A program made the position numbers and the translations under genes. DNA of 38,940 nucleotides from Clostridia bacterium (GTDB lineage Bacteria; Bacillota; Clostridia; Oscillospirales; CAG-272): positions 1-38,940 of the forward strand of contig JAFQFS010000050.1 in the NCBI GenBank assembly GCA_017398585.1, read 5' to 3'. A model generated the notes under the pieces. The model was not told the origin of the DNA. It was given only the letters and a program-made list of their open reading frames with translations, and did not search any database. This document shows positions 22,098-38,696 of this stretch, piece by piece. Position 1 is the stretch's first letter. Each line of letters begins with the position of its first letter.

Positions 22098-23099
22098 ATG
22101 TCTACTAACGTTCGTCCCGAAACGATGGAACGCATCACGACGCCTGAACTTGCTGCTGCATTTATTGAGGAGCAGGTAGCGGAAGTCCGCGCGCAGGTAG
22201 GGGATAAGAAGGTACTGCTGGCGCTGTCCGGCGGTGTTGACTCGTCGGTTGTAGCGGCGCTGCTCATCAAGGCGATCGGGAAGCAGCTGGTGTGTGTTCA
22301 TGTAAATCACGGTCTGATGAGAAAGAACGAATCGGAGCAGGTTGTTGAGATTTTCCGCAATCAGCTCGACGCGAACCTCATTTATGTTGACGCGACCGAC
22401 CGTTTCCTTGATCTTCTGGCGGGTGTAGCGGATCCCGAACAGAAGAGAAAGATCATCGGCAAGGAATTCATTGAAGTATTTGCAGACGAAGCGCGCAGAC
22501 TGGAAGGCGTGGAATACCTTGCGCAGGGCACGATCTATCCGGATATTCTGGAAAGTATCAAGCAGGCGGAAGGCAAGAAGGCAGTCAAGTCCCACCACAA
22601 CGTCGGCGGTCTGCCGGAAGACCTGAAGTTTGAACTGGTCGAACCCATCAAGCTGCTGTTCAAGGACGAAGTACGCGTAGTAGGCGAAGCGCTCGGTCTG
22701 CCGCACGCGATGGTATACCGTCAGCCGTTCCCGGGTCCGGGTCTCGGCGTACGCTGCCTCGGTGCGATCACGAGAGACCGTCTGCACGCACTGCGTGAAG
22801 CGGACGCGATCCTCAGAGAGGAATTTGACAACTGCGGACTTGCGGAAAAGGTATGGCAGTATTTTGTAGCGGTTCCGGACATCAAGAGCGTCGGTGTGAG
22901 AGATGACAGCCGTTACGAAGGCTGGCCGGCGATCATCCGCGCGGTAAACACGAAGGACGCGATGACCGCAACGGTCGAAGAGATCCCGTACGCGGTACTG
23001 CACAAGATCACGTACCGCATCACACACGAGGTTGAAGGGATCAACCGTGTGCTCATGGATCTCACTCCCAAGCCGATCGGCACGATTGAGTGGGAATAA
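22098..23099 (+). CDS. guaA: GMP synthase, ATP-pyrophosphatase subunit only
   Basis: This enzyme adenylates XMP and aminates it to GMP. The 333-residue protein carries the PP-loop LALSGGVDSSVVAAL (about residues 44-58), the lid and XMP-binding parts KSHHNVGGLPEDL and RQPFPGPGLGVRCLG, and the C-terminal dimerisation domain ending PKPIGTIEWE. The N-terminal class I glutamine amidotransferase domain of the usual ~510-residue bacterial enzyme is absent, as in two-subunit GMP synthases. A separate amidotransferase must be elsewhere, or ammonia is used. The ATG has a strong GGAGGGG. The last codons contain GAGTGGGAAT, the integration site of the element that follows. The gene reads intact to its TAA. 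Confidence 0.95.
   Translation: MSTNVRPETMERITTPELAAAFIEEQVAEVRAQVGDKKVLLALSGGVDSSVVAALLIKAIGKQLVCVHVNHGLMRKNESEQVVEIFRNQLDANLIYVDATDRFLDLLAGVADPEQKRKIIGKEFIEVFADEARRLEGVEYLAQGTIYPDILESIKQAEGKKAVKSHHNVGGLPEDLKFELVEPIKLLFKDEVRVVGEALGLPHAMVYRQPFPGPGLGVRCLGAITRDRLHALREADAILREEFDNCGLAEKVWQYFVAVPDIKSVGVRDDSRYEGWPAIIRAVNTKDAMTATVEEIPYAVLHKITYRITHEVEGINRVLMDLTPKPIGTIEWE
23088..23097 (+). other. Left attachment site (attL) in the last codons of guaA
   Basis: GAGTGGGAAT overlaps the Glu-Trp-Glu-stop codons of guaA. The same ten bases occur at 38,687-38,696 just outside the last element feature. Confidence 0.65.
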
Positions 23100-23164
23100 G
23101 AAAAAATTAGCAAAACCGTGATTTTCCCGGGTGTACACCTGAGAAAATGCAGTTTTTCCGCTGA

Positions 23165-23185
23165 TTTGATAGCAGAATGATAGCA
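23165..23185 (+). other. Candidate integrase arm-binding sites, left end
   Basis: TGATAGCA occurs at 23167-23174 and 23178-23185, 11 bases apart. The 13-mer TTTGATAGCAGAA (23165-23177) recurs at 38566-38578 near the right end. Confidence 0.6.
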
Positions 23186-23262
23186 AACCGTGATCCCGAT
23201 TTATTTGTTATATTATCGGTGACAGACGGCTTGCAGGTGTATCCAATTCTATAACAAAGAGC

Positions 23263-23315
23263 AAAGGCTCTGTTGACTTTCTGTATTACGCAGAAGTCGG
23301 CAGAGCCTTTTTGTT
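23263..23315 (+). terminator. Long hairpin terminator at the left end of the element
   Basis: AAAGGCTCTG pairs with CAGAGCCTTT, and inside it GACTT-TCTG pairs with CAGAAGTC; TTTTTGTT follows on the plus strand. It ends the short transcript leaving guaA and abuts the stop codon of the repressor, which it may also terminate. Confidence 0.7.
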
Positions 23316-23805
23316 ATTCCGTTAAATCCTGAGGCGGAACCTTCACCGTGTCCGGACGATGATCGAAAGCAGGGTAGTGATACCGCCAGCGGTCGTATTC
23401 CTCTTTTGTGATCTCGCTGTTCTTGAGTTTCTGCGCCTGTTCGTTCCATGAATAGAACATCTCAAACAGGACTTTGTAATCGTTCCCCTTGAATTTATCC
23501 AGTCGCAGACAGACTTCGCCGTGGATCTCGCCGATTTTCAGTCCGTACACATCTTCCAGCGTGAACAGCGTGTGCATCAGACCGAGGTAGCTGTCGATGT
23601 TCGGAACATCCAGTGCCATCGGGGATACGTCCAGTACCTTCGCAAGCTCCGCCGTCAGGTCAGCTTTCGGGGTACGGGTGCCGGTTTCGTACTGCGCCAG
23701 ACGTACATCTGCGGACTTTTCCGGGAATCCGACGGACATCCCCAAAAACTTCTGCGTCATGCCGCGTAATAATCTGAAAAAGTGAATTCTCTCGCCGATT
23801 GCCAT
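23314..23805 (-). CDS. XRE-family repressor
   Basis: The 163-residue protein has an N-terminal helix-turn-helix of the Cro/CI type (about residues 1-65): IGERIHFFRLLRGMTQKFLG, then VRLAQYETGTRTPKADLTAELAKVLDV. The C-terminal part is unrecognised, with FEMFYSWNEQAQKLKNSEITKEEYDRWRYHYP resembling the tail of repressors in clostridial mobile elements. It is divergent from the excisionase-like and integrase genes; the two face-to-face promoters and a pair of 20-bp operator-like sites between them suggest it controls excision. No autocleavage or metallopeptidase motif is visible. Confidence 0.88.
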   Translation of the reverse strand: MAIGERIHFFRLLRGMTQKFLGMSVGFPEKSADVRLAQYETGTRTPKADLTAELAKVLDVSPMALDVPNIDSYLGLMHTLFTLEDVYGLKIGEIHGEVCLRLDKFKGNDYKVLFEMFYSWNEQAQKLKNSEITKEEYDRWRYHYPAFDHRPDTVKVPPQDLTE

Positions 23806-23842
23806 GTTATCTTTTACTCCCGTTTTATCTTAATTTGCATAC

Positions 23843-23871
23843 ATTATAGCATATTTGCTTAGTGTTGTCAA
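23843..23871 (-). promoter_or_regulatory. Sigma-A promoter for the XRE repressor gene
   Basis: On the minus strand, TTGACA (23866-23871) and TATAAT (23843-23848) with a 17-base spacer; both boxes are perfect. Confidence 0.88.
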
Positions 23872-23878
23872 TAATGTT

Positions 23879-23898
23879 CTAAATAAATTTGTTTAATT
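23879..23898. promoter_or_regulatory. Operator-like site 1 (between divergent promoters)
   Basis: The 20-base site CTAAATAAATTTGTTTAATT matches site 2 (23955-23974) at 16 of 20 positions. It has an inverted TAAA/TTTA symmetry and lies between the -35 boxes of the repressor and excisionase promoters. Confidence 0.5.
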
Positions 23899-23916
23899 TT
23901 ATCCCCTGCACAGGAC

Positions 23917-23945: not shown

Positions 23946-23954
23946 ATAGATATC

Positions 23955-23974: not shown

Positions 23975-24002
23975 AAAATCATGGATCCAGAAAGGAGAAC
24001 CT

Positions 24003-24215
24003 ATGGCAGAAAAAATCTTTATGCGTGTGGACGAAGTTGCGGAGGAACTGGGCGTTTCGGTTCCATATGCGTACAAGCTCATCAAAAGGCTGAACGAGGA
24101 ACTGAAAGCAACCGGCTGCATCACTATCGCCGGAAGGATCGACCGCAAATTCTTCTACGAAAAATTCTACGGAACCCGTGAAAATAAAAAGGAGGGGACG
24201 AATGGCAGCATTTAA
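24003..24215 (+). CDS. Excisionase-like small helix-turn-helix protein
   Basis: The 70-residue protein contains a winged helix-turn-helix of the type used by excisionases and small DNA-binding proteins: FMRVDEVAEELGVSVPYAYKLIKRLNEEL, then an RIDRKFFYEKFYG wing. AAAGGAG precedes the ATG. It overlaps the integrase start by 14 bases, so the two are translationally coupled. The placement directly before the integrase and under the repressor-controlled promoter supports a role in excision or its control; I do not see a family-specific signature beyond that. Confidence 0.78.
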   Translation: MAEKIFMRVDEVAEELGVSVPYAYKLIKRLNEELKATGCITIAGRIDRKFFYEKFYGTRENKKEGTNGSI

Positions 24216-25275
24216 GGACAAGAAAAACGGCTCATGGTACGTCCAGTTCCGGTACACGGACTGGCAGGGGAACCGTCAGCAGAAATTCAAGCGGGGATTC
24301 GCCACCAAGAAGGAAGCACAGGCATGGGAACGGGAATTTCTGATGCAGAAGCAGGCGGATGTGAACATGACTTTCGAAAGTTTCGCGGAACTTTATGAGA
24401 AGGATGTGAAGCCGAAACTGAAGCTGAACACATGGCTGTCGAAAGAAAACATCATCCGGACGAAAATCCTGCCCTACTTCGCAAAACGAAAGCTGTCCGA
24501 AATCACGGCAAGAGATGTGATCGACTGGCAGAACGAAATCCGGAAGCTGAAAACCTCCAAAGGCGAGCCGTATTCGATGGATTATCTGAAAAATGTCCAC
24601 ACCCAGCTCAGCTGCATCTTCAATCACGCGATCAAATACTACGGTTTGCAGATCAACCCGGCGCAGAAAGCGGGAAATATGGGAAGCGAATCCACGAAGG
24701 AAATGCTGTTCTGGACGAAGGAGGAATATCTGAAATTCATCGACGCCATGATGGACAAGCCCATGCTGTATTATGCGTTTGAAATCCTGTACTGGTGCGG
24801 CATCCGGGAAGGCGAACTGCTGGCACTGACTCCCGCAGATTTTGATTTCGAGAAGAAAACGCTCCGGATCAACAAATCCTATCAGCGGATCGGCGGTGAG
24901 GATGTCGTTACTACACCGAAGACGAAGAAAAGCAACCGGATCATTCAGATGCCGGACTTCCTCTGTGACGAAATGCAGGATTATTTCAAACAGTTCTACA
25001 GTTTGGACAGGGATGCGCGGATTTTCCCGCTGACGAAACACAGGCTGAAAAGCGGGATGGAGTACGGGTGTAAGATGTCCGGCGTGAAGGTCATAAGAAT
25101 CCACGATCTGAGACACAGCCACGTTTCGCTTCTTATCAACATGGGATATTCGGCGGTGGCAATCGGAAACCGCGTGGGGCATGAGAGCGTGGAAATCACT
25201 TACCGGTACGCGCATTTGTTCCCCACGGTGCAGAAAGAAATGGCGGATAAATTAAATCTGGAAAGGGAGGCATAA
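24202..25275 (+). CDS. Tyrosine recombinase (integrase)
   Basis: The 357-residue protein has the AP2-like arm-binding N terminus (SWYVQFRYTDWQGNRQQKFKRGF), a SAM-like core-binding domain (about 60-160) and the catalytic domain. Catalytic residues seen are Arg in CGIREGELLAL, His and Arg in IHDLRHSHVSLL, His in VGHESVEITY and the nucleophile Tyr336 in YAHL. The layout is that of Tn916/ICE-type integrases. The ATG at 24,202 has AAGGAGG upstream and is preferred over an upstream GTG. This enzyme should recombine the guaA 3'-end site. Confidence 0.95.
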   Translation: MAAFKDKKNGSWYVQFRYTDWQGNRQQKFKRGFATKKEAQAWEREFLMQKQADVNMTFESFAELYEKDVKPKLKLNTWLSKENIIRTKILPYFAKRKLSEITARDVIDWQNEIRKLKTSKGEPYSMDYLKNVHTQLSCIFNHAIKYYGLQINPAQKAGNMGSESTKEMLFWTKEEYLKFIDAMMDKPMLYYAFEILYWCGIREGELLALTPADFDFEKKTLRINKSYQRIGGEDVVTTPKTKKSNRIIQMPDFLCDEMQDYFKQFYSLDRDARIFPLTKHRLKSGMEYGCKMSGVKVIRIHDLRHSHVSLLINMGYSAVAIGNRVGHESVEITYRYAHLFPTVQKEMADKLNLEREA

Positions 25276-25279
25276 ATCT

Positions 25280-25612
25280 ATGTCAGCAAAAAATCTGGAT
25301 GGTCAGGGACGCTGGCGGAACGTGAATGTATCGTTCCGGGTGTCACCGGAAGAGGACAGGCTTCTGGAAACTTTCGTGAATCTGTCCGGTATGACCAAAC
25401 AGGACTATATTATAAGCAGACTGCTCTGCAGGGATGTGGTGGTACAGGGAAATCCGCGGGTGTACAAAGCTTTGCGGGATAAATATGAGGAGGTGGCTGC
25501 GGAACTGAAAAGAATTGAGAAGGGAGGTGATGTGTCGCCGGAATTACTTGAAACGATTGAATTTATGGCAGTAATCATGAATGGAATGAAGGAGGACACG
25601 AATGAATTCTGA
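25280..25612 (+). CDS. MobC-like mobilization accessory protein
   Basis: The 110-residue protein resembles small plasmid mobilization proteins: a basic N-terminal part with NVNVSFRVSPEEDRLLETFVNLSGMTKQDYIISRLL (a ribbon-helix-helix-like pattern), followed by a helical C terminus (YEEVAAELKRIEKGG). Such proteins bind near oriT and assist the relaxase. Its ribosome binding site lies within the end of the integrase gene, and its own end overlaps the next gene by 11 bases, so it is part of the integrase operon. Confidence 0.78.
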   Translation: MSAKNLDGQGRWRNVNVSFRVSPEEDRLLETFVNLSGMTKQDYIISRLLCRDVVVQGNPRVYKALRDKYEEVAAELKRIEKGGDVSPELLETIEFMAVIMNGMKEDTNEF

Positions 25613-26774
25613 AAAAGAAAAAACGACTGCCCTGATTCCGTCTGTTGGCGCAGATGGGGAGCAGTCGAATGTAGATCACAATAATAGTATACCAGATTGT
25701 ATCAAAGAAATCAACGAGGAAGACGAAATTTCCGTGGAGGAAATGGAAAAGTTGTACCGGGAAGCACTTCGCAAGAACGATCCGGCGTATCTGCACACGG
25801 TTTCCCTCGGTGAACTCTACGAAACCGTGTATCACAGCAGGCCGCCGGTGATTGATGGACTGCTCTGTGCAGGGGCATACATCCTTGCGGGTGCACCGAA
25901 AATCGGCAAATCCTTCCTCGTAGCGCAGATTGCTTACCACGTCAGTACGGGACAGAAACTCTGGGAGTACGATGTCCGGCAGGGGACGGTACTGTATCTG
26001 GCACTGGAGGATGATTACCAGCGGTTACAGGAGCGTATGTTCCGGATGTTCGGCGTGTCGGAGGTAAGCACACTCTATTTCGCCACCAATGCGAAACAGC
26101 TTGGTAACGGACTGGATGAACAGCTTGAACTGTTCGTGAAGGAGCATGAGCATACCAAACTCATCATCGTGGATACCTTACAGAAGGTTCGCGAGGTTGG
26201 CGGAGATTCCTACAGTTACGCAAACGATTATGAAATCATCAGCAAGCTGAAAAAGTTCGCGGACAATCACGGAATCTGCGTTTTGATTGTCCATCATACC
26301 CGAAAACAGCCTGCCGGAGATAATTTTGAAATGATCTCCGGCACCACGGGACTTCTCGGATGTGCGGACGGTGCGTTGCTGATGCAGAAGGAAAAACGCA
26401 CGGACGGCAGAGCCACACTGGATATCGTCGGGCGGGATCAGCCGGATCAGAAACTGCACCTCGTAAAAGATCAGGAGCGGTTGATCTGGACGCTCGACCA
26501 CGCGGAAGCGGAGATGTGGAAGATTCCGCCCGATCCGACACTGGAAGCGGTGGCACGGCTGGTGTCAGCGGACAATCGGGAATGGACGGGCAGTCCGAGC
26601 GAGCTGGCGGAAACGCTCAATAACGGCATGGCGGCGAACACGCTGACGAAGCATCTGAACGTGAACGCAAGCCGTCTGATGGACGAATACAACATCCGGT
26701 ATGAGAACAAACCGAAGCACAGCGGAAGAAAAATCACGCTTACCTACATGGTAGTGGATGTTGTAATCATGTAA
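25602..26774 (+). CDS. RepA-like RecA-fold ATPase/helicase of a mobile element
   Basis: The 390-residue protein has a Walker A GAPKIGKS (about residues 97-104), Walker B KLIIVDTLQKV, and a RecA-type motif VLIVHHTRKQ, matching the AAA_25/RepA family of hexameric replicative helicases found on plasmids and mobilizable elements. The N-terminal 60 residues are acidic and low-complexity. The C-terminal part (from about 310) looks like a winged-helix domain (SPSELAETLNNGMAANTLTKHL). The start has AAGGAGG and overlaps the previous gene. Tandem 9-bp repeats directly follow the stop and could be its origin. Confidence 0.88.
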   Translation: MNSEKEKTTALIPSVGADGEQSNVDHNNSIPDCIKEINEEDEISVEEMEKLYREALRKNDPAYLHTVSLGELYETVYHSRPPVIDGLLCAGAYILAGAPKIGKSFLVAQIAYHVSTGQKLWEYDVRQGTVLYLALEDDYQRLQERMFRMFGVSEVSTLYFATNAKQLGNGLDEQLELFVKEHEHTKLIIVDTLQKVREVGGDSYSYANDYEIISKLKKFADNHGICVLIVHHTRKQPAGDNFEMISGTTGLLGCADGALLMQKEKRTDGRATLDIVGRDQPDQKLHLVKDQERLIWTLDHAEAEMWKIPPDPTLEAVARLVSADNREWTGSPSELAETLNNGMAANTLTKHLNVNASRLMDEYNIRYENKPKHSGRKITLTYMVVDVVIM

Positions 26775-27172
26775 AGCGCGACGGTCGCGACGATTGCGAC
26801 GGTCTATTTGACGGTACACAAAACACCGTTGCGACCGTCGCGGATCGTCGCGGTACACGGATGTCGTGCGACACAAGCCCCAAATCCCCGCCGCAGCGGG
26901 CAGGCAGGAATGGAAGATAGGTTTCATTTCTGCCCGGGAGGTGGTCATCCGCAGAGGAGCACCGACCATGACGGGTGAAATGTGGGACACATAGCAGCCG
27001 TCAGAGGACTTCGCAAAGTCCGCACACTTGCCCCCTGTCCGCAGACAGCCCACGGCACTTTGCAGCTGATCCTCAGAGCAGATGAAAGTGTTATAGTAGG
27101 TTATTACACTTCCGCAGAAGTGCATCCCCGTGAATAAAGTTCAGCTTACAAAATTGAGATTGGAGGAATTCT
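26775..27172 (+). other. Non-coding region: iteron-like repeats, hairpins and candidate oriT
   Basis: Three head-to-tail 9-mers, GCGACGGTC, GCGACGATT and GCGACGGTC (26778-26804), are followed by two inverted copies (26833-26841 and 26843-26851). Then come a GGCAG...CTGCC hairpin (about 26,909-26,940) and GGACTT/AAGTCC (about 27,007-27,022). Before the relaxase gene lies the inverted repeat AAGTGT...ACACTT (27086-27111) with further pairing. The arrangement, between a helicase gene and a relaxase gene, fits a replication origin plus oriT. No gene was seen here. Confidence 0.6.
27086..27111 (+). other. Candidate oriT inverted repeat
   Basis: AAGTGTTATAG and TTATTACACTT form an imperfect stem (one mismatch, one G-T) around a short loop, about 60 bases before the MobV relaxase start. 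MobV origins usually have such an inverted repeat next to the nick site. The nick itself cannot be placed. Confidence 0.4.
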
Positions 27173-28420
27173 ATGGCAAGAAACGACGGAATTGACCGCA
27201 CTACAGTGCGAAACGTCAACCTGTCAGAAACGAAAATTTCAAATACACAAAGACACAACGAACGTGAAAAAGATTCATACAGAAACGAGGATATTATGCC
27301 GGGACGAACGGCGTACAATGTCCACTATAAGACGCCGACGGGAAGTTACCGCGAAATGTTTGCACAGATGGAAGCGTCGAAAACGATCTCGACCAGAGGA
27401 TTGAAGGAGGATGCCGACCATTACGGGGAGCTGATCTTCGACGTGAACTCGGCGTACTTCCACAATCACGGCGGGTATGAGTTTGCGAAGAAGTTTTACG
27501 AAGATGCGTACAAATCCGCAGTCGAAATCGTCGGCGGTGAGCAATACATCCTGTCAGCAGTCATGCACGCGGACGAGCGGAACCGGGCGATGTCGGAAGC
27601 TCTCGGGAAGGATGTGTTCCACTATCATCTGCACGTTGTCTACATCCCGGTGGTCGAAAAACAGGTGCTGTGGACGAAGCGGTGCAAAGACCCGTCACTG
27701 GTTGGAACGGTCAAGGAAACGATCATGCAGGTCAGCAGCAGTAAGAAATGGCTGTCGAAACCGGCAGTTGATGAAATGGGAAATCCGATTTTACAGAAGA
27801 ACGGGAAGCCGGTGCTGAAAAAGTCGTACAGTCAGCTGCAGGACGATTTCTTCGACCATATGCGCGCCGCTGGTTATGAGGATGTGGAGCGCGGGGAACG
27901 TGGATCGACGGAAGAACATCTGACCGTGATGCAGTTCAAGATCGGGCAGGAACAGGCTCGGTTAGAAGAACTGCAGGAACAGCAGGCTAAGGAAACTGCC
28001 GGCTTTGAAAAGAAGAAAGCGAAGATTGAAAAACAGGAGACTAATCTCGAACGTATTGAGCAGATAGAAGCCAAGCCGATTCCGCTGACCTCGAAGGTAG
28101 CCGTGGAGAAAGCGGATTATGATCTGCTGAAATCTGCCGCGAACAAGTATGTTGTGCAGGAGAAGAAGGAATCGAAATTGCAAAAGGCACTGGACAAAGC
28201 AAAGAAGATGATTGCCGATCTGACGGCGGAACTGAAAGCGGTGAAGGCGGAACTGTTGGAGTATAAATCGGTCATCGGTAAACTGGATCGTGCCGGACTG
28301 GAAAGAGAAAATGCAGAACTGCGTGAGAAAGTCCGGTGGTATGATTCCATTATTGATGCGAAGAATTTACGGAATCTGTTTATTCGGCATGGCCATCGCA
28401 GACAGCAGGAACGGCAGTAA
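27173..28420 (+). CDS. MobV/Pre-family relaxase
   Basis: The 415-residue protein nicks DNA at oriT to start mobilization. Motif I appears as QRHNEREKDSY (residues about 27-37), and the histidine-rich metal site as FHYHLHVVYIPV (His150, His152, His154). The C-terminal third (about 255-390) is a long coiled coil rich in Lys/Glu (LEELQEQQAKETAGFEKKK and onward), as in other Pre/MobV proteins. GGAGGAATT precedes the ATG. It is the last large backbone gene before the cargo. Confidence 0.94.
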   Translation: MARNDGIDRTTVRNVNLSETKISNTQRHNEREKDSYRNEDIMPGRTAYNVHYKTPTGSYREMFAQMEASKTISTRGLKEDADHYGELIFDVNSAYFHNHGGYEFAKKFYEDAYKSAVEIVGGEQYILSAVMHADERNRAMSEALGKDVFHYHLHVVYIPVVEKQVLWTKRCKDPSLVGTVKETIMQVSSSKKWLSKPAVDEMGNPILQKNGKPVLKKSYSQLQDDFFDHMRAAGYEDVERGERGSTEEHLTVMQFKIGQEQARLEELQEQQAKETAGFEKKKAKIEKQETNLERIEQIEAKPIPLTSKVAVEKADYDLLKSAANKYVVQEKKESKLQKALDKAKKMIADLTAELKAVKAELLEYKSVIGKLDRAGLERENAELREKVRWYDSIIDAKNLRNLFIRHGHRRQQERQ

Positions 28421-28563
28421 CGTCTTGATCTGGAGAAAACGGGAAATTTCCGATGGGAGAGGTTGAACCGAACAGGATATTAAAACGACTTCTCCCATTG
28501 GGAAAAACAGCAGAAAAGCCAGGTGTAGACTTGGTGAAAATTTTGAAAAATCAGGGAGGTTTC

Positions 28564-28845
28564 ATGAGAAAGTCACAGAAGGAAACAATCGTAAGTTTTG
28601 ATGAGAGCAGCGAGCGTGTGAATGTATTTACGCATAACGCCGATCTGAAAAAGAGGTTGACGAAGTTTGCGGAGGATTATCCAAAGCTGTGCCGACTGAT
28701 TGATGATAACGGAATCGGCGGTATGGCGTTTGAGGTGGATAGAAAACGGTTTGGCTTCCGGCTGACGGCATCGTACACGGCGGAACGGAAGAAGGCGGCA
28801 AGTGAGTTGGCGAAGAAAAGAGGTATGGGAGGAAATATGGTATGA
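28564..28845 (+). CDS. Small conserved mobile-element protein, function unknown
   Basis: The 93-residue protein starts at the ATG after GGGAGG (MRKSQKETIVSFDESS); a longer frame from 28,453 is possible but lacks a ribosome binding site. It resembles a small protein often found beside relaxases on clostridial elements (pattern: VNVFTHNADLKKRLTKFAEDYP, then VDRKRFGFRLTASYTAERKKAA). No domain with a known function is recognised. Its TGA overlaps the next start in ATGA, so the two genes are coupled. Confidence 0.7.
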   Translation: MRKSQKETIVSFDESSERVNVFTHNADLKKRLTKFAEDYPKLCRLIDDNGIGGMAFEVDRKRFGFRLTASYTAERKKAASELAKKRGMGGNMV

Positions 28846-29092
28846 AGAAGATACGGAAGTGCGAATATAATATGGACTGGACACCGCCTGTGTTGAGTTG
28901 GGGTTAGATGATGGGACAGTGATCGCGATTGATACGATTGCTGTGGAGAACGAGGGGGCGGATAATATGTATCAGCGGAGTGAGCTGGACTGGCTGATCT
29001 ACAATGCGCCGCTGGAATGTGCGGAGCTGGTACTGAACGGGGATCCGGAGAGGTATCTGAAGGCTGTGGTAGAGTATAAGCGGCTTGACTGA
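28842..29092 (+). pseudogene. DUF6061-like small protein, frameshifted
   Basis: From the coupled ATG at 28,842 (GGAGG upstream) the frame gives MKKIRKCEYNMD, then stops at 28,905. The following part in another frame reads CVELGLDDGTVIAIDTIA and continues to YLKAVVEYKRLD at 29,092. Together they match the usual small protein of about 80 residues found in this position on clostridial elements, as I recall that family. A shift of one base between about 28,872 and 28,890 splits it. It may be a real pseudogene or a sequencing error; programmed frameshifting is less likely, as no slippery run was seen. Confidence 0.65.
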
Positions 29093-29162: not shown

Positions 29163-29191
29163 TTGACAAAAAGTTCACAGTATGTTATAAT
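29163..29191 (+). promoter_or_regulatory. Sigma-A promoter for the first cargo gene
   Basis: TTGACA (29163-29168) and TATAAT (29186-29191), both perfect, with a 17-base spacer, about 54 bases before the ATG. The cargo thus has its own constitutive-looking promoter. Confidence 0.9.
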
Positions 29192-29244: not shown

Positions 29245-32200
29245 ATGATGAACAGCAGAAAAAACAAATTCATCAGCGGATTGCTTTCATTCGTTATGGT
29301 TATGACGATGATATTGGAGATACTGCCGCCGATTGAGGCTGGGGCAGCTGAGTTTTCAATATCTGTACCTAAAGATGGAGATACATATTGGCTGGAAGAT
29401 ATGTCACAGCCATATAATATTCTCTATGAAAAGTATGCGGATGCGGTACAACATTGGGTAACAATAACAGATTTATCTGACTACAGTGATATATTTGAAA
29501 CCATTACAGAAAGTGAAATAGTTTCAGTAGATCGCGATTTATTTGAGTATGGTGGTGAATATAGAGTTACAGTTATTCCTTTAGATAATTTGGGTGATCC
29601 GATTGGTGGAGGTACATTTTCAATAAGTAATGAATTTTCTGTCCATGATGAAATGTATCTTAATTTTTCGGAAAATGATATGCAGGTATCCAGTGAATCC
29701 AATACATATTACATTGATGTTGAGACAAATAATGATGATTTAAGTTGGACAATAGGTGAAAGTGTTTCATGGTTAACTTTTTCTCCTGATTCAGGTACAG
29801 GTAGTACTGAAGTTAAAGTAAAAGTTAGCAATTATGATAAAACAGAAGATCGAGTTGCATATGTTAATTTACAAAATAAAAAATATGATTTTAAATATCA
29901 ATTAAAAGTAACACAATCTGGGATAGATTATACACCACATCTTGAGGTTACAGAGGATAGTTTAACTTTTTCATCAGAGTCTGGTGATATAAAGACATTT
30001 AAAATAAAATCAAATGAATCATGGGAGTTGGACTATCCCGAGTGGGTTACCTGTGAACCTGACAGTAAAACGATAACAACTGGTAACACTAATACAACAA
30101 CAGTTACTGTAACAACAATCAGTGAGAATACATCTTCAAGTGCCAATAGAGGAACAATATATATTGAAACTGACAATTGTGAGACCGAAGTCGAAGTGAC
30201 TCAAGAGGGGAGCGATATCCCGGAACAAGAAGAACATCATCCCACAATCACTTTCAATGTTTCTCCGACAACCGTTACTGAAGGAGAGAAGATCACATTT
30301 TTCGGCGTAGCCGATGGTGATGGATATAAAATCAATGCTGTAAGCATCGGTGTGGCATATTATGAATCAGAAGAAAAATATTATGAAGAGCAAAACAAAG
30401 AAGATCCTTCTGCTGATGATGCGGTGTATTTAAGAGAACCGAATATCAGTGTTGACACATTTGATTATTCTTCCATAAAGGACGGTAGCATTCCCACTGG
30501 TTCTGATGAACCTTTGAAAGGGGAGCTTGATGTTGAAGGCGAATATGTGCCTCATGAGATTCTCATGAGGCCAGGTGTTTATACTTTTACAGCCCATGCA
30601 TATTCTGACGAATATGGTAAGGAATTTGAACAGGTGTCCAAAACGGTGCGTATAGAACCTGATGAAGAAATACAGGAAGAAATTCAATTGGATTCTTTCA
30701 AGATTACCAATACCAATACAACTGTTAATAGAGGCTCCTCCTATATGCTCGAATGGGATGCCCCTGCTAATGCGCCTGACGGAACGACATACAGCATATT
30801 TGTCTGGGAATATTCCAATACCACAGAAGTCGGCTCTACGACAGATACCTGGTTTGAAATTCCGAGTAAATGTTTTGCCAACGCAGAGGTTGTTGCGATT
30901 ACTGTATACGCCAATGCAGACGGTTACAAGCAAAGTGAATGTGAAGAAACTCTGAATGTAACTGTAATCGAGGATGATACGAAAACACCGTGTGTTACTT
31001 CCGTTGTTCCCGACCCTCCTGCAGGAGATATGAACACTACCTATACCTTTACGGCGTATGCTGAAAATACAGATACTGTGGTATTTTACATGAATTCCAC
31101 AAAGATCGCAACTGTAACTGGTTCGAATGGAGAATTTGTCTGCTCATACAGCGGATTCCGTAAAGCAGGAACCAGAACTGTATTTGCATATCCTGTTGAC
31201 AGCAATGGAAATGAATTAAGAACGAACGGCTGTTTTGCTTCTGCCGAGATTACCATTGAAGCGGAAGGGAACCTCGAAAATATCAAGTATATCACAGAGT
31301 CCTATCAGAATATTGACGTGAATTCTTCCTTTGAGCTTGCATGGGAAAGACCTGAAAATGCACCGGAGGATATCGATATATCTTATATTATTTATGTCCA
31401 TAATGACGATGGTAAGGTAGGCGACGAATTTGAAGAATCCAGTGAATCTACCGTGATTCCGGCGTCCTATTTTGCAGAAGAAGGAAGATACACGATTTCT
31501 GTATATGCCGTTGCGGATAACTGGTCACAGAGCGAATATTCTGCAATTACAGTCTATGTGGAAGCTTCTGTTCCTACCATCAGCGGCTACAGACTTTCTC
31601 ATGCCACAATTCCGCGGGACGGTTCCTTTACTATGAAGGGGACTGTGGACGGCAACGGAGACGATCTGACAGAAATCCTTGTCAAAGCTGTGAATACATC
31701 CAGCGGAACTTCCGGTGAACTCTATTCGGATTCGCTGAATGACAGCGAGTTTGATCTGGCGGATATTCCAGCGCTCTGTCCTGCTAACAGTGGTCTCACG
31801 GAAGCCGGGACATATACGATCAGTGTTTATGCAAAAACTGTGGGAGCTACTTCCGCGACTTTACTGGGAAAATCCAGTCTTTATGTTTCGGCAGATTCCA
31901 AAATAACACTGGATACTCCTCAGCTGAACGGGACAAGCACTCTCGAATACGGTGAAAACTACATAATTTCCTGGAACTACGATTCCGCAGTGGATTACTA
32001 CAGCATTTCTGTGGGCGGATATTCCACAAAAATGACGGCAGATGCTTCGGAGGGATCGTATTCTATTCCTGCGTCCATTTTCAAAAAGCTGAGCAATGGT
32101 TCTTCGTATAACTGCACGATCTATGTACAGGCAATGAGCAAGGATACGGACAACTATCTTTCCAGTGCGACTGCGGAAAAGAAGATTACTGTTGCGGCAA

Positions 32201-35200
32201 AATCTGAAGCAACGGCGATCATCAAATCTGCGGAAATCGTTGGATTAAGCGCAGATAAGGTGATTATCGGCGGAACGGAAGTGGAATTTGAAGTTGTTAC
32301 TTCCACGGATGTCACAGCACTCCGAATGAAGGACGGGGCAGGTTCATTCGTCATCAATACATGGACAACCGGATATACCGATTCCGGGGACAACCGTACA
32401 TGGACGGTAACACAGAAAGTAAACTACGCCGGCGGCAATGACGCAACCGGTGCGAAACGTATGCTTACATTCTACTCGATGATCGGTGATATCGAATATA
32501 ACACATACAATATCAGCTTCTACTGTCAGAAGGGCGATACAATCGGCACCTTCTCTGTTCTCGCGCCTAAAAACAATTCGGTACAGGATGAAGGCAAGAA
32601 TCTGCGGATCACATGGAGCAAACCGCAGAACACGGATGTGGACAGCTATATTCTTGAGGTTATTCACAACGAACAGACGGTTGTGAGAGAAGAAATTCGC
32701 GGAAAGTGCGAATATACGCTGGACGGCTCGTATCTGGTGCGCGACAACAATGCATGGAAGATTCAGATTACTGCGCGGAAGGATGCCGGACAGTGGTCGG
32801 AAAGCAGCGCATTTGCTACGTTTACGCTGAGCTGTACGCATGAAAAGAAGAATCCTTCTTCGGAACGTGTTCTTTCGTATACAAACACCGGCAATGGACA
32901 CAGAATGGAGGTTGAGATTACCTCTACCTGTGAGGGCTGCGGTCTGGAAATCGTAGAAGAGAAGCCGGAAATCCGTACGGAGGAACATAAGTTTGTCGAC
33001 CTTACAGAGGGCGGCAAGGTATGCAACTGCTGTTGGTACTTGGTCAATGATGGTACATTTACGGACACGACAGAATACATTGCCAAGGAAAAATCCTATG
33101 CTTACACGAATGTACGCAAAGATGGAACACCGTATGGCGTACAGTATGTCAACGGGAATAAAAGTTCTATTCGCACGATATTTGCGGGAGATAAGATTAC
33201 GATTATTGGAAAGTTGAATGGATGCTGTCTGGTAGAGTATCCGATCAGTGGAGGAGCTTCGGCTAGAAGCAGTGGAGGATATTGGTATGGATTTGTGAAG
33301 GAAAGTGTGTTGGATGAAAAGGAAATCAAACAAGAAAATCCCAGTGAGGGAACATCAAATATTCAACAATATGTACAAGCAATGTACGATGCGGTGCTGG
33401 CTTTAGATGAATCTGAATTGAAAGCAAAACAGATATTTGAAAATGAATATTATCTTGCTCAATATTTTTGCGACTATTGGAGTAAGGAATATGGATGGTA
33501 TGATCAACTTCAAAGGAATGGGCTTAGTGGAAAGGGAATAATTTTTAATAATATTGAACGACTTTTTAATACTGAAGCATACCTATTCGATTTAGAATAC
33601 GAATTACTACAGACTGCTATTTCTGAAATTCCTCCGAGTTTTGACAATAATAATACATTACATGATACAAAAATTAATACTCAGGATGATGTTAATAATA
33701 TCGTTGAAGTAATTTTTGAATTTGTTGACACTGCAGGGGAGATCTATGGGGAAGATTTTTCGAAATTAGGTGATGAATGTTACAAAGTGATTTCATCAAG
33801 AATATCTAAAATATCCGAGGTATTTGATGAGGGGCTAAATTGGAAATGTGTATCTAATGGTATGATTGATCAACTGGCAAAAAATGCTCGTGGCACTGTA
33901 ATTAGTGCTGTCTTTGAGGCAGTTCGAGCATATAATGCATATACTAACTTTAGAATAGCTGCTGAATTAGAATATTTTGAGGTTTTGAGAGATATATTCA
34001 TGGGCGATGAGAATATAATAAAAGTGATAGATGAACTAGAAGTAGACTATTTAAATAAGGTGACTGCATTTTCGAATTGTTTATTTGATTTTGTATTGTC
34101 TCAAACGGGCGAGGAAACTGCAAGCTATATAGTTGCTCTGGTACTTCCTGAAATTGTTGTTATAGCTAAAGCAACCGATGTTATTCTCAAAGCAATAGGA
34201 ACTGTATCGGGTTTAACAAAGAATGTTAATAGCAAAGAATTACTCGCTCTTTACGGATGGATATTGTATGATACCAGATATTCATATATATCAAAACTCA
34301 TGTCATATAATGGAAGTTATCATGATGCATGTGTAATTGAATCTTATTATCAGGTATGGCGAGGTATGCAAATTTACTATAACGGAATAGTGATAGACTA
34401 TCTCGAATCCAGCGATGAATATGATTATAGAATTGTAGGTCAACTTGAAGATGAGATTGAGCAATTAAAAAAACAAGACATTTCAAATTGGACTTTCAAT
34501 GAATGTGGTTTTCTCCAAGAAATTCCAGACACATCTTCATTAAGTGATAATTACTATATGAATATTTTATTATATGGTTATCCTTTCAAGAAAGCCAATA
34601 ATTATGATGGTGTGATTGAAAATTGGGATAAAATGACGACGTATCAAAAAATGGAGTCTAATGAGATAATCACGAATCTTGTAGAGTTCAACAAATATGA
34701 TGTAAGCCGATTATATGTGATGGAAATGATAACAAAAGATTCTTACGGCAACATCCAAGACACTTCATTTTCAATAACCAATAATCATATGATGACAGAT
34801 AGTTATTTATACGTAAATGAAATTGGGATGGGACTTCATTTTACACGATGGTATGTTCCTCATACTGCTGGAACGAGATATTCACCGTTTTATGTAACTT
34901 GTTATACGGTATTAGATAATAGACAAGTTTTAAACCTGTTGACAGGTAATACTCCTATGCGAACCGAATGGCTTTCGGTTAACAGCGAACGTTGGGATGT
35001 GTTTTGGATTTGTACATCTTTTGAGTATTCCACGTATGTTAATAAGTATATTGAATATGATATAAATGTTGAAGAATATCATAAAGGGTTGAATATACTT
35101 CTTGGAGAAAGAGCGTGTTCTAATATTCAATTTGATTTACGGCCTGAAGATATATTAACATCAATGTTTGGGTTAGGTAATATGTGGGGGAATATATATC

Positions 35201-35292
35201 CTAATTACGGGCGATATGGAGGATATGTTAAGAGGTTTGGGAAAGGAAAAGTAGTTGATACTAGTAACCTTACGTTAATTGTCTATTCATGA
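29245..35292 (+). CDS. Giant secreted BACON/Ig-like/SH3-like protein with unrecognised C-terminal third
   Basis: The ~2,015-residue protein starts at ATGATG after AAGGAG. It has a signal peptide (to about residue 35), an N-terminal beta domain, two BACON-type domains (about 138-227 and 232-322, each ending in a VTQ motif), then a run of about seven Ig/fibronectin-III-like repeats (about 331-1195) with a recurring EYGENYIISWNYDSA-type start. A Cys/His cluster follows (CTHEKK, CEGCGLE, CNCCWY; about 1197-1275), then an SH3-like segment (about 1276-1360) with GDKITIIGKLNGCCLVEY and YWYGFV. The last ~650 residues are an alpha-rich part with a hydrophobic stretch (about 1620-1655) and a Tyr/Asn-rich tail, with no family I know. 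The DNA is AT-rich at both ends and GC-richer in the middle. No LPxTG or other anchor is seen; adhesion or a secreted effector role is possible, unproven. Confidence 0.8.
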   Translation: MMNSRKNKFISGLLSFVMVMTMILEILPPIEAGAAEFSISVPKDGDTYWLEDMSQPYNILYEKYADAVQHWVTITDLSDYSDIFETITESEIVSVDRDLFEYGGEYRVTVIPLDNLGDPIGGGTFSISNEFSVHDEMYLNFSENDMQVSSESNTYYIDVETNNDDLSWTIGESVSWLTFSPDSGTGSTEVKVKVSNYDKTEDRVAYVNLQNKKYDFKYQLKVTQSGIDYTPHLEVTEDSLTFSSESGDIKTFKIKSNESWELDYPEWVTCEPDSKTITTGNTNTTTVTVTTISENTSSSANRGTIYIETDNCETEVEVTQEGSDIPEQEEHHPTITFNVSPTTVTEGEKITFFGVADGDGYKINAVSIGVAYYESEEKYYEEQNKEDPSADDAVYLREPNISVDTFDYSSIKDGSIPTGSDEPLKGELDVEGEYVPHEILMRPGVYTFTAHAYSDEYGKEFEQVSKTVRIEPDEEIQEEIQLDSFKITNTNTTVNRGSSYMLEWDAPANAPDGTTYSIFVWEYSNTTEVGSTTDTWFEIPSKCFANAEVVAITVYANADGYKQSECEETLNVTVIEDDTKTPCVTSVVPDPPAGDMNTTYTFTAYAENTDTVVFYMNSTKIATVTGSNGEFVCSYSGFRKAGTRTVFAYPVDSNGNELRTNGCFASAEITIEAEGNLENIKYITESYQNIDVNSSFELAWERPENAPEDIDISYIIYVHNDDGKVGDEFEESSESTVIPASYFAEEGRYTISVYAVADNWSQSEYSAITVYVEASVPTISGYRLSHATIPRDGSFTMKGTVDGNGDDLTEILVKAVNTSSGTSGELYSDSLNDSEFDLADIPALCPANSGLTEAGTYTISVYAKTVGATSATLLGKSSLYVSADSKITLDTPQLNGTSTLEYGENYIISWNYDSAVDYYSISVGGYSTKMTADASEGSYSIPASIFKKLSNGSSYNCTIYVQAMSKDTDNYLSSATAEKKITVAAKSEATAIIKSAEIVGLSADKVIIGGTEVEFEVVTSTDVTALRMKDGAGSFVINTWTTGYTDSGDNRTWTVTQKVNYAGGNDATGAKRMLTFYSMIGDIEYNTYNISFYCQKGDTIGTFSVLAPKNNSVQDEGKNLRITWSKPQNTDVDSYILEVIHNEQTVVREEIRGKCEYTLDGSYLVRDNNAWKIQITARKDAGQWSESSAFATFTLSCTHEKKNPSSERVLSYTNTGNGHRMEVEITSTCEGCGLEIVEEKPEIRTEEHKFVDLTEGGKVCNCCWYLVNDGTFTDTTEYIAKEKSYAYTNVRKDGTPYGVQYVNGNKSSIRTIFAGDKITIIGKLNGCCLVEYPISGGASARSSGGYWYGFVKESVLDEKEIKQENPSEGTSNIQQYVQAMYDAVLALDESELKAKQIFENEYYLAQYFCDYWSKEYGWYDQLQRNGLSGKGIIFNNIERLFNTEAYLFDLEYELLQTAISEIPPSFDNNNTLHDTKINTQDDVNNIVEVIFEFVDTAGEIYGEDFSKLGDECYKVISSRISKISEVFDEGLNWKCVSNGMIDQLAKNARGTVISAVFEAVRAYNAYTNFRIAAELEYFEVLRDIFMGDENIIKVIDELEVDYLNKVTAFSNCLFDFVLSQTGEETASYIVALVLPEIVVIAKATDVILKAIGTVSGLTKNVNSKELLALYGWILYDTRYSYISKLMSYNGSYHDACVIESYYQVWRGMQIYYNGIVIDYLESSDEYDYRIVGQLEDEIEQLKKQDISNWTFNECGFLQEIPDTSSLSDNYYMNILLYGYPFKKANNYDGVIENWDKMTTYQKMESNEIITNLVEFNKYDVSRLYVMEMITKDSYGNIQDTSFSITNNHMMTDSYLYVNEIGMGLHFTRWYVPHTAGTRYSPFYVTCYTVLDNRQVLNLLTGNTPMRTEWLSVNSERWDVFWICTSFEYSTYVNKYIEYDINVEEYHKGLNILLGERACSNIQFDLRPEDILTSMFGLGNMWGNIYPNYGRYGGYVKRFGKGKVVDTSNLTLIVYS

Positions 35293-35356: not shown

Positions 35357-38300
35357 ATGAAACGACTACTATCATTTATCCTCATACTATCCCTACTATG
35401 CGTGCTTCTGACCTATCCGCTGAATGCGGAGGATAATGCCGTAATAAGCGTAACAACAATGATTGACCCCGGTTTTTCGTCCGCAGTTCCGATCGCCGAA
35501 AGCGGGAGCATTGTTGACCTTAACATCAACGGTGCATATCAGTATTACACCTTCACCCACACTGCGGAAGACAATTTTACCGCAGAGGTTGTCTCAACTT
35601 CATCCGTGAAAATCAAATACGAACTGTATGATTCCGATTTTTCCCTCATGGAGGAATTCACTGCTCCTGCCAATGACTCTTACAGCAGCGGATGGTATCC
35701 GCTGCCTCAGGGGACATACTATATCAAAGTATACCCGGCTTTCGGAAACACCGCTTCCGGAACGCTGTGTATCAATTTTGCGGCAGAGGAAACTTTATTG
35801 AAAGACCCCGGATTTGCATCAGCAGAACCGATCCTTGACGTAAAAACTTCATATAAGTTTAGTGCTGAAGGAACTTATTGTTACTTTGTTTTTAAGCCGA
35901 TGGAACAGCTTAATGTCCATTTGAGCCTTTCAAACGGTTCTCAGGGTGAATTGGCGTGGGAATTATTCGATGAGAATTATTCGCTTATATATTCCTATGT
36001 TATGCCTAAAGCAAATGGTATGTTACATACTTTGCAGGCAACCCCCGGCGTATATTATATAAGATTCTTTTCAACAGGAGATAATGCAATCAGTGGCAGT
36101 CTGAGTATCAACAATGATGTTCCTTTGGCAAATCCAAAATATATTCCTTTACAGGACTTCCAGATTGAAGAATCCTTATTGGAACTCCAGGTTGGGGATA
36201 CTTATCAGCTGACTCCTATATTTACTCCCACAGATGCAGATTACCAGACGGTTTTCTGGCAGAGTGATGACAGCAGTGTTGTAGAAGTTTCTGACAACGG
36301 AATCATTACTGCTATGAAAAAAGGAACTGCAACGATTACTGGAAATGTTACAGAGACATATGATGGTAAAGTAGCTACCTACAGCGATACAGTAAGCGTG
36401 GTAGTAGGGGATAACTTGGAATTGACTGACCCTGGTTTTGAATCGGCGGAAGAACTTCATATCAGTGGAGAAGTTATTGATTTGTCTTTTAACGGTGCAG
36501 TGAAATATTATACTTTCTTCCTGCAGGGAGATATGGATTTTGGTGCGGAACTCGTATCAACTTCTTCTTCTGCGATAAAGTTTGAATTGTATGATTCACA
36601 ATATTCTCTTGTCGATGAATATATTGTGCAGGCGAATCTCTCGTATAGTATCGGATATCATTCGTTAGAATGGGGAACATATTATGTGAAAGTGTACCCC
36701 CTGAACACTTCTGATGCTACAGGGACATTATGTATTACATCTCTGGCGATAGAACCTATAATGAAAGACTCTGGTTTTTCCTCCGCGTTTCATATCACGG
36801 ATACGGATGTTTCATATATTTTTGAGGGATTGTATGAGTACATATATTTTTCATTTGATATGACGGAAATTGGTGTTGCAGATATATATATCATGAACAC
36901 ATCTGAAGGGCATATCGAATACGAATTATATCAGGGACAGGATACGGTATTATTCCGATATGATATGAGTGAAGGGGCAAATTATACCTATTCACCTGAA
37001 CTTTCGGCAGGAAGATATTACGTAAGAGTCTATACTCCGTGGAATCATGCATTCAGCGGAAGAATCAATGTTTATTCCGATGTTCTCGGCGATGGTACTG
37101 TGCCGGATACTCCTGAAAGCGATTCTGACTCAAGTGCAAAGCTGAGAGTCTACGAACCGACTTACGAATATGTCCGTCAGTTCAAGGATAATTACGCAAC
37201 CGTTTATAATAATGGAGTCTATTCCCTCGTGGATACGCAGAACAATCAGCACTATTCTACCAATCAGGACGGGTTCGGAGATTACTCGGAAGAAATCGTT
37301 GCGATCTATGATGCGGACAAGCACGAAATCACCTTTACGCGTCTTGACGGATATTCCTTCGCTTTTATCGGTTATATCTGGGCGGGAGAATTCCTTGGCG
37401 GTAAGTGTGTCATTGTTGACGAGGACGGGAAATACGGTCTGATTGATACTTCCGGAAACTTTATTGTTGATTGTATATATGATGACATCGAGTACGATAT
37501 GTCGGATACAGTGCTGCTGTATTCCGATTCTGTGTGGACACCGTATACGATCGGGCAGGACAGTACATATTCTCTGTATTCACGTTCTGCGGTTACAGAA
37601 ATCTATAATCCTGTTCTGTCTGTGACGGGAGAACATATCATAGCTTCCGACGGAACGGCATACGGAATTCTGACAACGGATAATGTTCCTCTGACTGCGT
37701 TTGAATACGATCTGATCCATGATGCGGAAGACGGACTTTTTGTCGGTTATAGCGGAGATTACGTGTATCTGATTGAAACAGACGGTACTGTTTCTGCTAC
37801 GCTTACTGCCTACTATGTCGGAGGATATTCGGAAGGAAAACTTGCGGTATATGACGGTACAGAGTTCTTCTATGCTGATAAAAACGGAAACCGAGTTGTG
37901 GAACTTTCTGTTGAGGACGTAGTATCGGCGGAAGAGTTTCATGAGTCTCTGGCTGTAGTATGTGTTGATAACAAAGGATATACTTACATCAATACTTCCG
38001 GTGAGATTGCTGTGGATTCCTACTGGGATTATGCGGCACAGTTTGCAGAAGGATATGCACTGGTTATGAACTATATCACAGATGGCGACGGTAATATGCT
38101 GCGAAGATGGAATGTTATTGATATGGATTTCAATAATGTGCTTACATTGGAAGATGATGTATATATTGATGCCGCCGACGAACATTCCGCGGACTTTTCG
38201 AATGGCTATATACGCACTGTTGACAGAAATACCGGTTTGATGGGATTTGTTCAACTGGAGAGTGCGGCTTCAGAAAATATTACGGGCGACCTCAACGAAG

Positions 38301-38479
38301 ACGGAACAGTATCTGTGAAAGATGTACAGTATTTCCTGGCATATCTTACATCTCCGGAAGAATATCCGCTCAATGCAGCTGATGTTGACTATAATGGTGA
38401 CGGGGAAGTGAATCGTGCAGATGCTCTGTATCTGCTTCGTTATACCATTCTTCCGGAACGGTATCCATTGTCCAGGTAA
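35357..38479 (+). CDS. Secreted dockerin protein with duplicated beta-domain module and WG-like repeats
   Basis: The 1,040-residue protein has a signal peptide (to about residue 24) and GGAG before the start. Four related beta domains of about 110 residues, each opening DPGF-SA (near 36, 148, 356 and 469), look like pre-peptidase C-terminal (PPC)-type domains. A Big_2-like Ig domain (about 264-355: LLELQVGDTYQLTPIF, NGIITAMKKGTATITG) lies in the middle. After a Ser/Asp linker (about 586) comes a WG-type repeat region (about 600-970: GKYGLIDTSGNFIVDCIYDD). The C terminus is a type I dockerin (about 977-1037) with two calcium loops, DLNEDGTVSVKD and DYNGDGEVNRAD. It should be exported and dock to a cohesin scaffold. 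It sits 65 bases after the giant protein gene, probably in one transcript. Confidence 0.87.
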   Translation: MKRLLSFILILSLLCVLLTYPLNAEDNAVISVTTMIDPGFSSAVPIAESGSIVDLNINGAYQYYTFTHTAEDNFTAEVVSTSSVKIKYELYDSDFSLMEEFTAPANDSYSSGWYPLPQGTYYIKVYPAFGNTASGTLCINFAAEETLLKDPGFASAEPILDVKTSYKFSAEGTYCYFVFKPMEQLNVHLSLSNGSQGELAWELFDENYSLIYSYVMPKANGMLHTLQATPGVYYIRFFSTGDNAISGSLSINNDVPLANPKYIPLQDFQIEESLLELQVGDTYQLTPIFTPTDADYQTVFWQSDDSSVVEVSDNGIITAMKKGTATITGNVTETYDGKVATYSDTVSVVVGDNLELTDPGFESAEELHISGEVIDLSFNGAVKYYTFFLQGDMDFGAELVSTSSSAIKFELYDSQYSLVDEYIVQANLSYSIGYHSLEWGTYYVKVYPLNTSDATGTLCITSLAIEPIMKDSGFSSAFHITDTDVSYIFEGLYEYIYFSFDMTEIGVADIYIMNTSEGHIEYELYQGQDTVLFRYDMSEGANYTYSPELSAGRYYVRVYTPWNHAFSGRINVYSDVLGDGTVPDTPESDSDSSAKLRVYEPTYEYVRQFKDNYATVYNNGVYSLVDTQNNQHYSTNQDGFGDYSEEIVAIYDADKHEITFTRLDGYSFAFIGYIWAGEFLGGKCVIVDEDGKYGLIDTSGNFIVDCIYDDIEYDMSDTVLLYSDSVWTPYTIGQDSTYSLYSRSAVTEIYNPVLSVTGEHIIASDGTAYGILTTDNVPLTAFEYDLIHDAEDGLFVGYSGDYVYLIETDGTVSATLTAYYVGGYSEGKLAVYDGTEFFYADKNGNRVVELSVEDVVSAEEFHESLAVVCVDNKGYTYINTSGEIAVDSYWDYAAQFAEGYALVMNYITDGDGNMLRRWNVIDMDFNNVLTLEDDVYIDAADEHSADFSNGYIRTVDRNTGLMGFVQLESAASENITGDLNEDGTVSVKDVQYFLAYLTSPEEYPLNAADVDYNGDGEVNRADALYLLRYTILPERYPLSR

Positions 38480-38484
38480 AAGAC

Positions 38485-38513
38485 TTGCATTGGTCCGTAT
38501 AATGTGGTATAAT
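38485..38513 (+). promoter_or_regulatory. Outward-facing promoter at the right end of the element
   Basis: TTGCAT (38485-38490) and TATAAT (38508-38513) with a 17-base spacer point out through the right end. No ORF follows within the window. Confidence 0.55.
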
Positions 38514-38543
38514 ACAGATACTTAAACCAAGCTTTCCAGGCAG

Positions 38544-38578
38544 TGATAGCATTCGCCGATAGCTGTTTGATAGCAGAA
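38544..38578 (+). other. Candidate integrase arm-binding sites, right end
   Basis: TGATAGCA occurs at 38544-38551 and 38568-38575, with CGATAGCT between them at 38557-38564. The copies are spaced 13 and 11 bases apart and match the left-end motif. Confidence 0.6.
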
Positions 38579-38686
38579 AGTCATATACCCTATAGAATAC
38601 GGATACTACACATCAAACACATCAAATAAAACCAAATGAGATCAAATCGCCCATACAGAAAAGTTTAGAACCCGATTTCATTTGGC

Positions 38687-38696
38687 GAGTGGGAAT
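38687..38696 (+). other. Right attachment site (attR)
   Basis: GAGTGGGAAT repeats the last bases of guaA (23088-23097). It marks the outer edge of the element, about 110 bases beyond the arm-like repeats. Confidence 0.65.

Follow-up and report, generated by a model that had tools for sequence, protein, structure and literature searches.

A putative integrative and mobilizable element at guaA with two giant exoprotein genes as cargo in a Clostridia bacterium

The 3' end of guaA is the integration site of several described mobile elements. One of them is ATE-1, a 10.8-kb integrative and mobilizable element (IME) of Trueperella pyogenes, for which the source gives a tyrosine integrase, the guaA 3' end as the target and a MobV relaxase (PMC5704250). 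The same source describes GIsul2 and an IncP island with the guaA 3' end, a tyrosine integrase and RepA, and reports arsenate and arsenite resistance on GIsul2 (PMC5704250). Tn5801-like elements also integrate at the guaA 3' end and have 11-bp flanking direct repeats (PMC4844618). Tandem accretion at one site and a cargo of restriction-modification or resistance genes are both described for IMEs (PMC5357655, PMC5704250). Here we analyze a 38,940-nucleotide stretch of DNA (the window), which is the entire contig C39 of an incomplete Clostridia bacterium genome, G000 (3.18 Mb in 178 contigs, 74% complete). Positions 23088-38696 of the window are very probably an IME, a reading to which we assign a probability of about 0.86 from the features described below, and its cargo consists of two genes for giant exoproteins.

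By its site, the kind of its integrase and the family of its relaxase the element is an ATE-1-type guaA IME, with ATE-1 being compared by its description: the two share the guaA 3' end, a tyrosine integrase and MobV. Furthermore, a relative of the window's backbone stands at guaA beside tet(W), the resistance gene of ATE-1, in Subdoligranulum. The window element itself differs from ATE-1 in that it has no tet(W) among the nine element proteins that we scanned and carries two giant exoproteins instead. GIsul2 and the IncP island, likewise compared by description, resemble it in the guaA 3' end, the tyrosine integrase and RepA, but have Proteobacterial hosts. Tn5801, which is putatively conjugative and 25 kb long, has conjugation genes and tet(M), but no match to these was seen in the window element. 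No mating-pore system or coupling protein was matched among the nine proteins in Pfam or NCBIfam, the two collections used for assigning protein families. As conjugation genes were unmatched in this set, a conjugative identity of the element was rejected.

The guaA gene of the window (22098-23099; this and all other features lie on the plus strand unless stated otherwise) encodes only the ATPase/synthase part of the enzyme (333 aa, TIGR00884), with no glutaminase domain directly upstream, and its 3' end is the attachment site. The attL core GAGTGGGAAT (23088-23097) overlaps the guaA stop codon and the attR core (38687-38696) matches it exactly; these are the two exact copies in the window, and they bound a unit of 15,599 bp. 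The guaA reading frame is left intact by the element. The original prediction had proposed a mobilizable element with a tyrosine integrase that targets guaA, keeps the gene intact and has GAGTGGGAAT at both ends; the exact copies at 23088 and 38687 confirm the last point, and the others are supported by the present data. As a separate observation on this gene, several members of the genus have a second, more distant guaA match, and by inspection one locus (L050) has a 539-aa guaA open reading frame that includes the glutaminase part.

With one mismatch allowed, GAGTGGGAAT occurs four times in the window versus 2.75 occurrences expected, and 27 of 100 shuffled sequences contain at least four. 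This near-chance count speaks against the boundaries as drawn: the 10-mer alone is weak evidence, and other support for the ends is required. Such support comes from two pairs of TGATAGCA repeats, at 23167 and 23178 near the left end (23167-23185) and at 38544 and 38568 near the right end (38544-38575), which are placed as integrase arm sites would be and are candidates for this role. The left end of the element is 89-92% identical in genomes G013 and G009, and its arm repeats are present in both, but absent from the left end in G267. The right end, including its arm repeats and the att core, is kept in the sister genome G009 (86% identity over 199 bp), so that the right-end GAGTGGGAAT, on whose conservation in sister elements the original prediction had staked its case, is indeed conserved there. 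Behind the right att of G009 stand two additional core copies with a 95-bp spacing (L057 10003-10217), which are possibly scars of earlier elements. The genes beyond these copies have, by inspection, no element character.

The sequence that follows the right end is itself informative. Positions 38697-38822 belong to another guaA element of a different kind and form its left end (94% identity over 134 bp to G007), and positions 38823-38940 are the end of an insertion sequence, which by inspection we take to be IS66-like and within which the contig stops (81% identity to a copy in G000:C143). We therefore rejected the notion that the right flank is plain chromosome. When the window's guaA end is fused to position 38,697 onward, the resulting sequence aligns to G007 without a gap. 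In G007, an integrase gene of a second type (51% identical) lies within about 130 bp of this junction in the opposite orientation, and Xis, RepA and the start of MobV lie behind it. As the guaA-to-38,697 junction is thus occupied by another guaA element, the window shows elements in tandem rather than an island surrounded by plain chromosome. In genome G006, guaA is followed by other genes, and the window integrase was unmatched in the roughly 18 kb inspected; as far as this test goes, its guaA appears to be an unoccupied site. Hence, the empty site that was anticipated in relatives has a candidate in G006, and the anticipated junction exists in G007, but the latter holds another element. The MobV gene start of the G007 element runs into RepA-like sequence (L043 9060-9551) and is a fused remnant.

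These data also bear on the possibility that the giants are host chromosomal genes, that the element is shorter and that the right-hand copy of GAGTGGGAAT arose by chance. The near-chance number of one-mismatch copies is in line with this, and a related pair of giants in G231 has no matched mobile genes beside it. However, the TGATAGCA repeats and att are kept behind the giants in G009, the sequence past the right end joins guaA directly in G007, units with other cargo run from att to att in G161 and G238, and the GC content of the giants is far below that of the chromosome. We consider a chromosomal origin of this kind very improbable.

The integration and mobilization genes agree with the proposed IME. 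The original prediction had listed a repressor, an excisionase-like gene, an integrase, a RepA-like ATPase and a MobV relaxase, and all of them were found with Pfam or NCBIfam. They are an HTH_3 repressor of 163 aa (23314-23805, minus strand; Pfam), which is 95% identical in G013 and G009; a 70-aa excisionase resembling Xis of ICEBs1 (24003-24215; NF047858, E 1.4e-9, 37.5 bits, below the model cut-off of 100); a tyrosine integrase of 357 aa from its ATG (24202-25275; PF14657, PF14659 and PF00589, all three over cut-off); a RepA-type AAA_25 ATPase of 390 aa (25602-26774; PF13481); and a MobV-family relaxase of 415 aa (27173-28420), for which PF01076 (Mob_Pre) is over and the NCBIfam MobV model NF041497 below cut-off. 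A protein previously called MobC-like is present at 25280-25612 (110 aa), but it is rather a NikA-like relaxosome accessory protein (PF21983). Thus, the integrase and excision functions of an IME are present, with the integrase over the Pfam cut-offs and the Xis-like protein below its own, and so are, by sequence only, an own relaxase and an origin of transfer (oriT).

The candidate oriT (27084-27125) lies just upstream of mobV and has overlapping inverted repeats and a MobV-type nick region, TAGTAGG/TTATTAC. Its core AAAGTGTYATAGTRGGTTATTACACTTCC occurs in the window and in nine further places, namely in seven genomes and in both Subdoligranulum copies, and one relative's core departs from it at one base. 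The DNA of this region folds with a z of -2.41, and 4 of 200 shuffled sequences fold equally well. A study of pMV158 describes an oriT with overlapping inverted repeats and the nick region TGTG/TTATAC (PMC5863519). The window element resembles pMV158, so described, in the MobV relaxase and in this architecture of oriT, but pMV158 is a plasmid, and the candidate in the window, recognized by its letters alone, reads GTAGG/TTATTAC. Nicking by MobV would take place here.

Taken together, these features suggest a possible life cycle. Through recombination at GAGTGGGAAT, the integrase and Xis would release the element as a circle of 15.6 kb, and RepA may allow this circle to replicate. MobV would nick oriT, and a co-resident conjugative element would move the circle to a new cell, where it would enter guaA, also ahead of resident elements (tandem accretion). 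A cargo place lies behind the mobilization genes and is filled, in this case, by a promoter-led gene pair.

To find relatives, we searched with the integrase among 295 genomes sampled from one family (71 genera) at a threshold of E<=1e-90; a genus-level set comprised 25 genomes, G000 included. Integrase relatives were found in 27/295 genomes and 20/71 genera, and their surroundings were inspected in 26 of the 27 genomes (G242 was left out). A guaA match was present in the stretch for 20 of these 26 loci, although it is distant in G054, G086 and G151 (34-35% identity). In G243, G220, G236 and G047 guaA was unmatched, and a contig end coincides with the integrase or att or is close to it. In G045 and G169 it was unmatched as well, though an att-like core stands beside the integrase. 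NikA-like, RepA and MobV proteins were matched together in only part of the integrase-bearing loci, the fuller backbone being rarer. Such integrases occur in 20 of the 71 sampled genera of one family and at guaA in most places inspected. This spread, together with the tet(W)-carrying relative in Subdoligranulum, suggests that poorly cultured bacteria share the site and the vehicle, while the cargo changes. The comparison of the window with G013, where the integrase is 96% but guaA only 80% identical, argues for transfer.

Several findings count against a mobile element of this composition. The exact oriT motif is absent from all 20 loci L130-L149, and several elements of that set have a relaxase of another kind or none matched. 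Between the window and G267, which belongs to another genus, the integrase is 61%, MobV 81% and guaA 83% identical; with the integrase more diverged than guaA and MobV about equal to it, there is no support for transfer in this pair. In G009, the left end and the cargo lie on two different contigs, C279 and C154 respectively, no integrase was found on either stretch and no MobV match in the genome, so that their unity as one element is our inference. The giant pair of G231 has no window-type integrase or relaxase within the 19 kb inspected, which indicates that the pair also exists independently of this element. Finally, we infer the mobility of the window element from an assembled genome and not from reads.

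The cargo place was compared in nine elements: those of the window and G009, and seven relatives. G086 (L136) was excluded from the count because its stretch has no right att copy, and G007, G021, G151, G243 and G267 because their stretches stop at or near the mobilization genes. Exoproteins are the cargo in 4/9 elements (window, G009, G220 and G236), and restriction-modification genes in 3/9. G013 carries GmrSD_N and N6_Mtase genes and G008 a type III methylase, with the contig ending before attR in both. G238 carries a type I restriction-modification system in a unit that runs from att to att and in which no mobilization gene was matched. The cargo of G220, the left end of which is off the contig, is a pair of AAA and S8 protease (subtilase) genes and an LRR lipoprotein, and its relaxase is of the MobA/VirD2 type. 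In G236, the cargo is a cohesin-dockerin protein; the contig begins at the att core, the integrase is shortened and, by inspection, a serine-recombinase-like reading frame lies nearby. G161 contains, again from att to att, a metallo-hydrolase, a DUF2812 protein and a more distant Mob_Pre protein, and the Subdoligranulum element carries tet(W).

This variety is relevant to the question of whether the giants of the window could be an anti-phage or superinfection-exclusion device. The restriction or AAA/protease genes in the same place of G013, G008, G238 and G220 would be in line with such a role. On the other hand, the cargo of other elements includes tet(W), a hydrolase or a protein with cohesin and dockerin, and function is therefore not predicted by the cargo place. 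In addition, neither giant has a PADLOC match at E 0.01, and both have signal-peptide-like starts and extracellular-type modules. A defensive function thus appears improbable. A phage origin of giant 1 was rejected, as no relative was found in viral contigs (pattern scan) or in a phage collection.

Giant 1 (29245-35292; 6.0 kb, 2015 aa from its ATG) has a signal peptide, two BACON stretches and an Ig/fn3-like stalk, of which the fn3-like region is below cut-off, and a C-terminal part without a Pfam family that looks SH3-like and helical by inspection. Giant 2 (35357-38479; 3.1 kb, 1040 aa) has a signal peptide, a PPC-like region below cut-off, Big_2, WG repeats and a C-terminal dockerin. Both proteins start with a signal-peptide-like stretch and are built from extracellular-type modules. 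The predicted cargo of 6.0 and 3.1 kb in two genes encoding secreted giants with BACON and dockerin is thereby borne out. The term "cellulosome-type", which had been applied to it, holds in part: there is a dockerin on giant 2, and elsewhere in the same genome cohesin is matched twice over cut-off (G000:C24), so that both the dockerin of a cellulosome component and predicted cohesins in its host are present. Pfam detects no dockerin in giant 1, however, BACON is listed in Pfam as a putative binding domain, and no catalytic domain or established carbohydrate-binding module was matched in either giant. Cellulosomal dockerin proteins of gut and ruminal Clostridia are similar in having a type I dockerin, as giant 2 has, and cohesins in the same genome. 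Giant 2 differs from them in the lack of a catalytic domain, in its WG, PPC-like and Big_2 modules and in its location on a mobile element. A dockerin-bearing exoprotein pair as IME cargo was not described in the literature among the matches listed, as judged from titles and abstract starts.

Relatives of giant 1 were found in 2/25 genus genomes and 4/295 family genomes, its own being included in both counts. G009 is missing among these four and is, presumably, not in the sampled set. The pair occurs in the same gene order in G009 and in G231, a member of another genus. Giant 2 of G009 has LRR_5, WG and dockerin modules, and that of G231 has WG and a C-terminal hydrophobic stretch with no dockerin match. 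In G251 and G111, which have weak giant 1 matches, the next gene encodes a cohesin-dockerin protein. The GC content of the giants is 39-42% versus 55.8% for positions 1-22000 of the window. For giant 1 it is 38-41% versus 48-56% in the surroundings (G000, G009, G231 and G251), although in G111 it is not much lower (36 versus 39 around it). When the window is compared with G009, the DNA flanking the giants has 85-92% identity, whereas the value for giant 1 is 37% (residues 1-1411) and that for giant 2 is 59% (residues 265-1029). The movement of this cargo between gut bacteria, which had been proposed, is thus suggested by recurrence and composition, but with only 37% and 59% identity over the aligned parts there is no support for the same cargo having been transferred recently.

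The divergence of giant 1 is uneven along its length. Compared with G009, residues 901-1200 are 43-60% identical and residues 1501-2000 only 16-26%, whereas the proteins of G009 and G231 retain 20-43% between them in this part although their genera differ. In the three sequences available, this pattern would fit a head exchange in the protein of the window. Giant 1 would then be secreted and consist of a BACON/Ig stalk that ends in a variable C-terminal head, and giant 2 would be a secreted protein with WG repeats, the dockerin of which could plug into host cohesins. It is possible, at somewhat below even odds, that the two form a cell-surface binding or docking complex with an exchangeable head that alters the recipient's attachment. 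The broader proposal, which as a whole is doubtful, is that an extracellular module of two genes uses the guaA element as its vehicle: the dockerin would fit into the recipient's cohesins, the partner would bear the exchangeable head, one transfer would re-arm the surface of a gut Clostridium, and the cargo place would be interchangeable with restriction systems, proteases and resistance genes. If exoproteins are regular cargo beside restriction and resistance genes, a single mobilization event can alter the surface properties of gut Clostridia, and whether a given recipient can make use of the cargo would depend on dockerin-cohesin pairing.

Unfortunately, the data on the proteins themselves also include points that are unfavorable to such a module. 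No catalytic or toxin family was found in the cargo with Pfam. The conserved stalk and divergent C-terminus of giant 1 are seen in three sequences only, and the C-terminal parts of G009 and G231, which belong to different genera, are themselves only 20-43% identical, so that the head may have diverged fast rather than been swapped. Fold prediction for the C-terminal part of giant 1, run with three sequences, gave a mean pLDDT (predicted local distance difference test score) of 35.9 and hence supports no fold, and sequence searches of the PDB with giant 1 returned nothing usable.

The same region of giant 1 could be viewed differently, as the business end of an antagonism module in which a polymorphic-toxin-like protein presents an exchangeable helical C-terminal head on a secreted stalk and acts on competitors. 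A conserved stalk with a divergent and more AT-rich C-terminus (32.3% GC) and a hydrophobic stretch at residues 1628-1660 are compatible with it, and a profile of the C-terminal part matches one PDB sequence, colicin E1, but at E 0.11, which is noise level. The C-terminal part has no Pfam toxin family and no usable fold, the giants have no PADLOC match, and the gene that follows is giant 2 and not a small immunity-type gene. Antagonism is therefore unlikely. The docking complex remains our preferred reading of the pair.

Ahead of giant 1 there is a promoter-like TTGACA-N17-TATAAT (29163-29191; 12 of 12 positions), which is also present in G009, although the promoter scan as a whole was near chance (37 found versus 32.6 expected). 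Between mobV and this promoter lie a gene for a 130-aa protein with no assigned function (28453-28845), which is common to the G013, G008, G267 and G243 elements, and a small DUF6061-type reading frame (28842-29092), which is frame-broken in the window and full length in G013.

Further att-like cores and arrays were observed. In G000:C143 (L063, about 1838-1860), another att-like core, which does not adjoin guaA coding sequence, lies near an IS66-like element, and there may be a further guaA-type unit at this place. G047 (L137 2729-6152) has two consecutive integrase genes with an att-like core between them, which is another tandem array; the second integrase match has two stops. In the named Subdoligranulum variabile record (L150 2977-18998), guaA is followed by three units with related integrases. 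Units 1 and 2 are 8,011 bp each, differ by one base, are bounded by the att core and contain tet(W); as read from the assembled record, they are a tandem duplication from att to att. The MobV match in Subdoligranulum spans 272 of 415 residues, and within the stretch MobV was unmatched in the third unit. Although it contains guaA, the record is classified as a plasmid.

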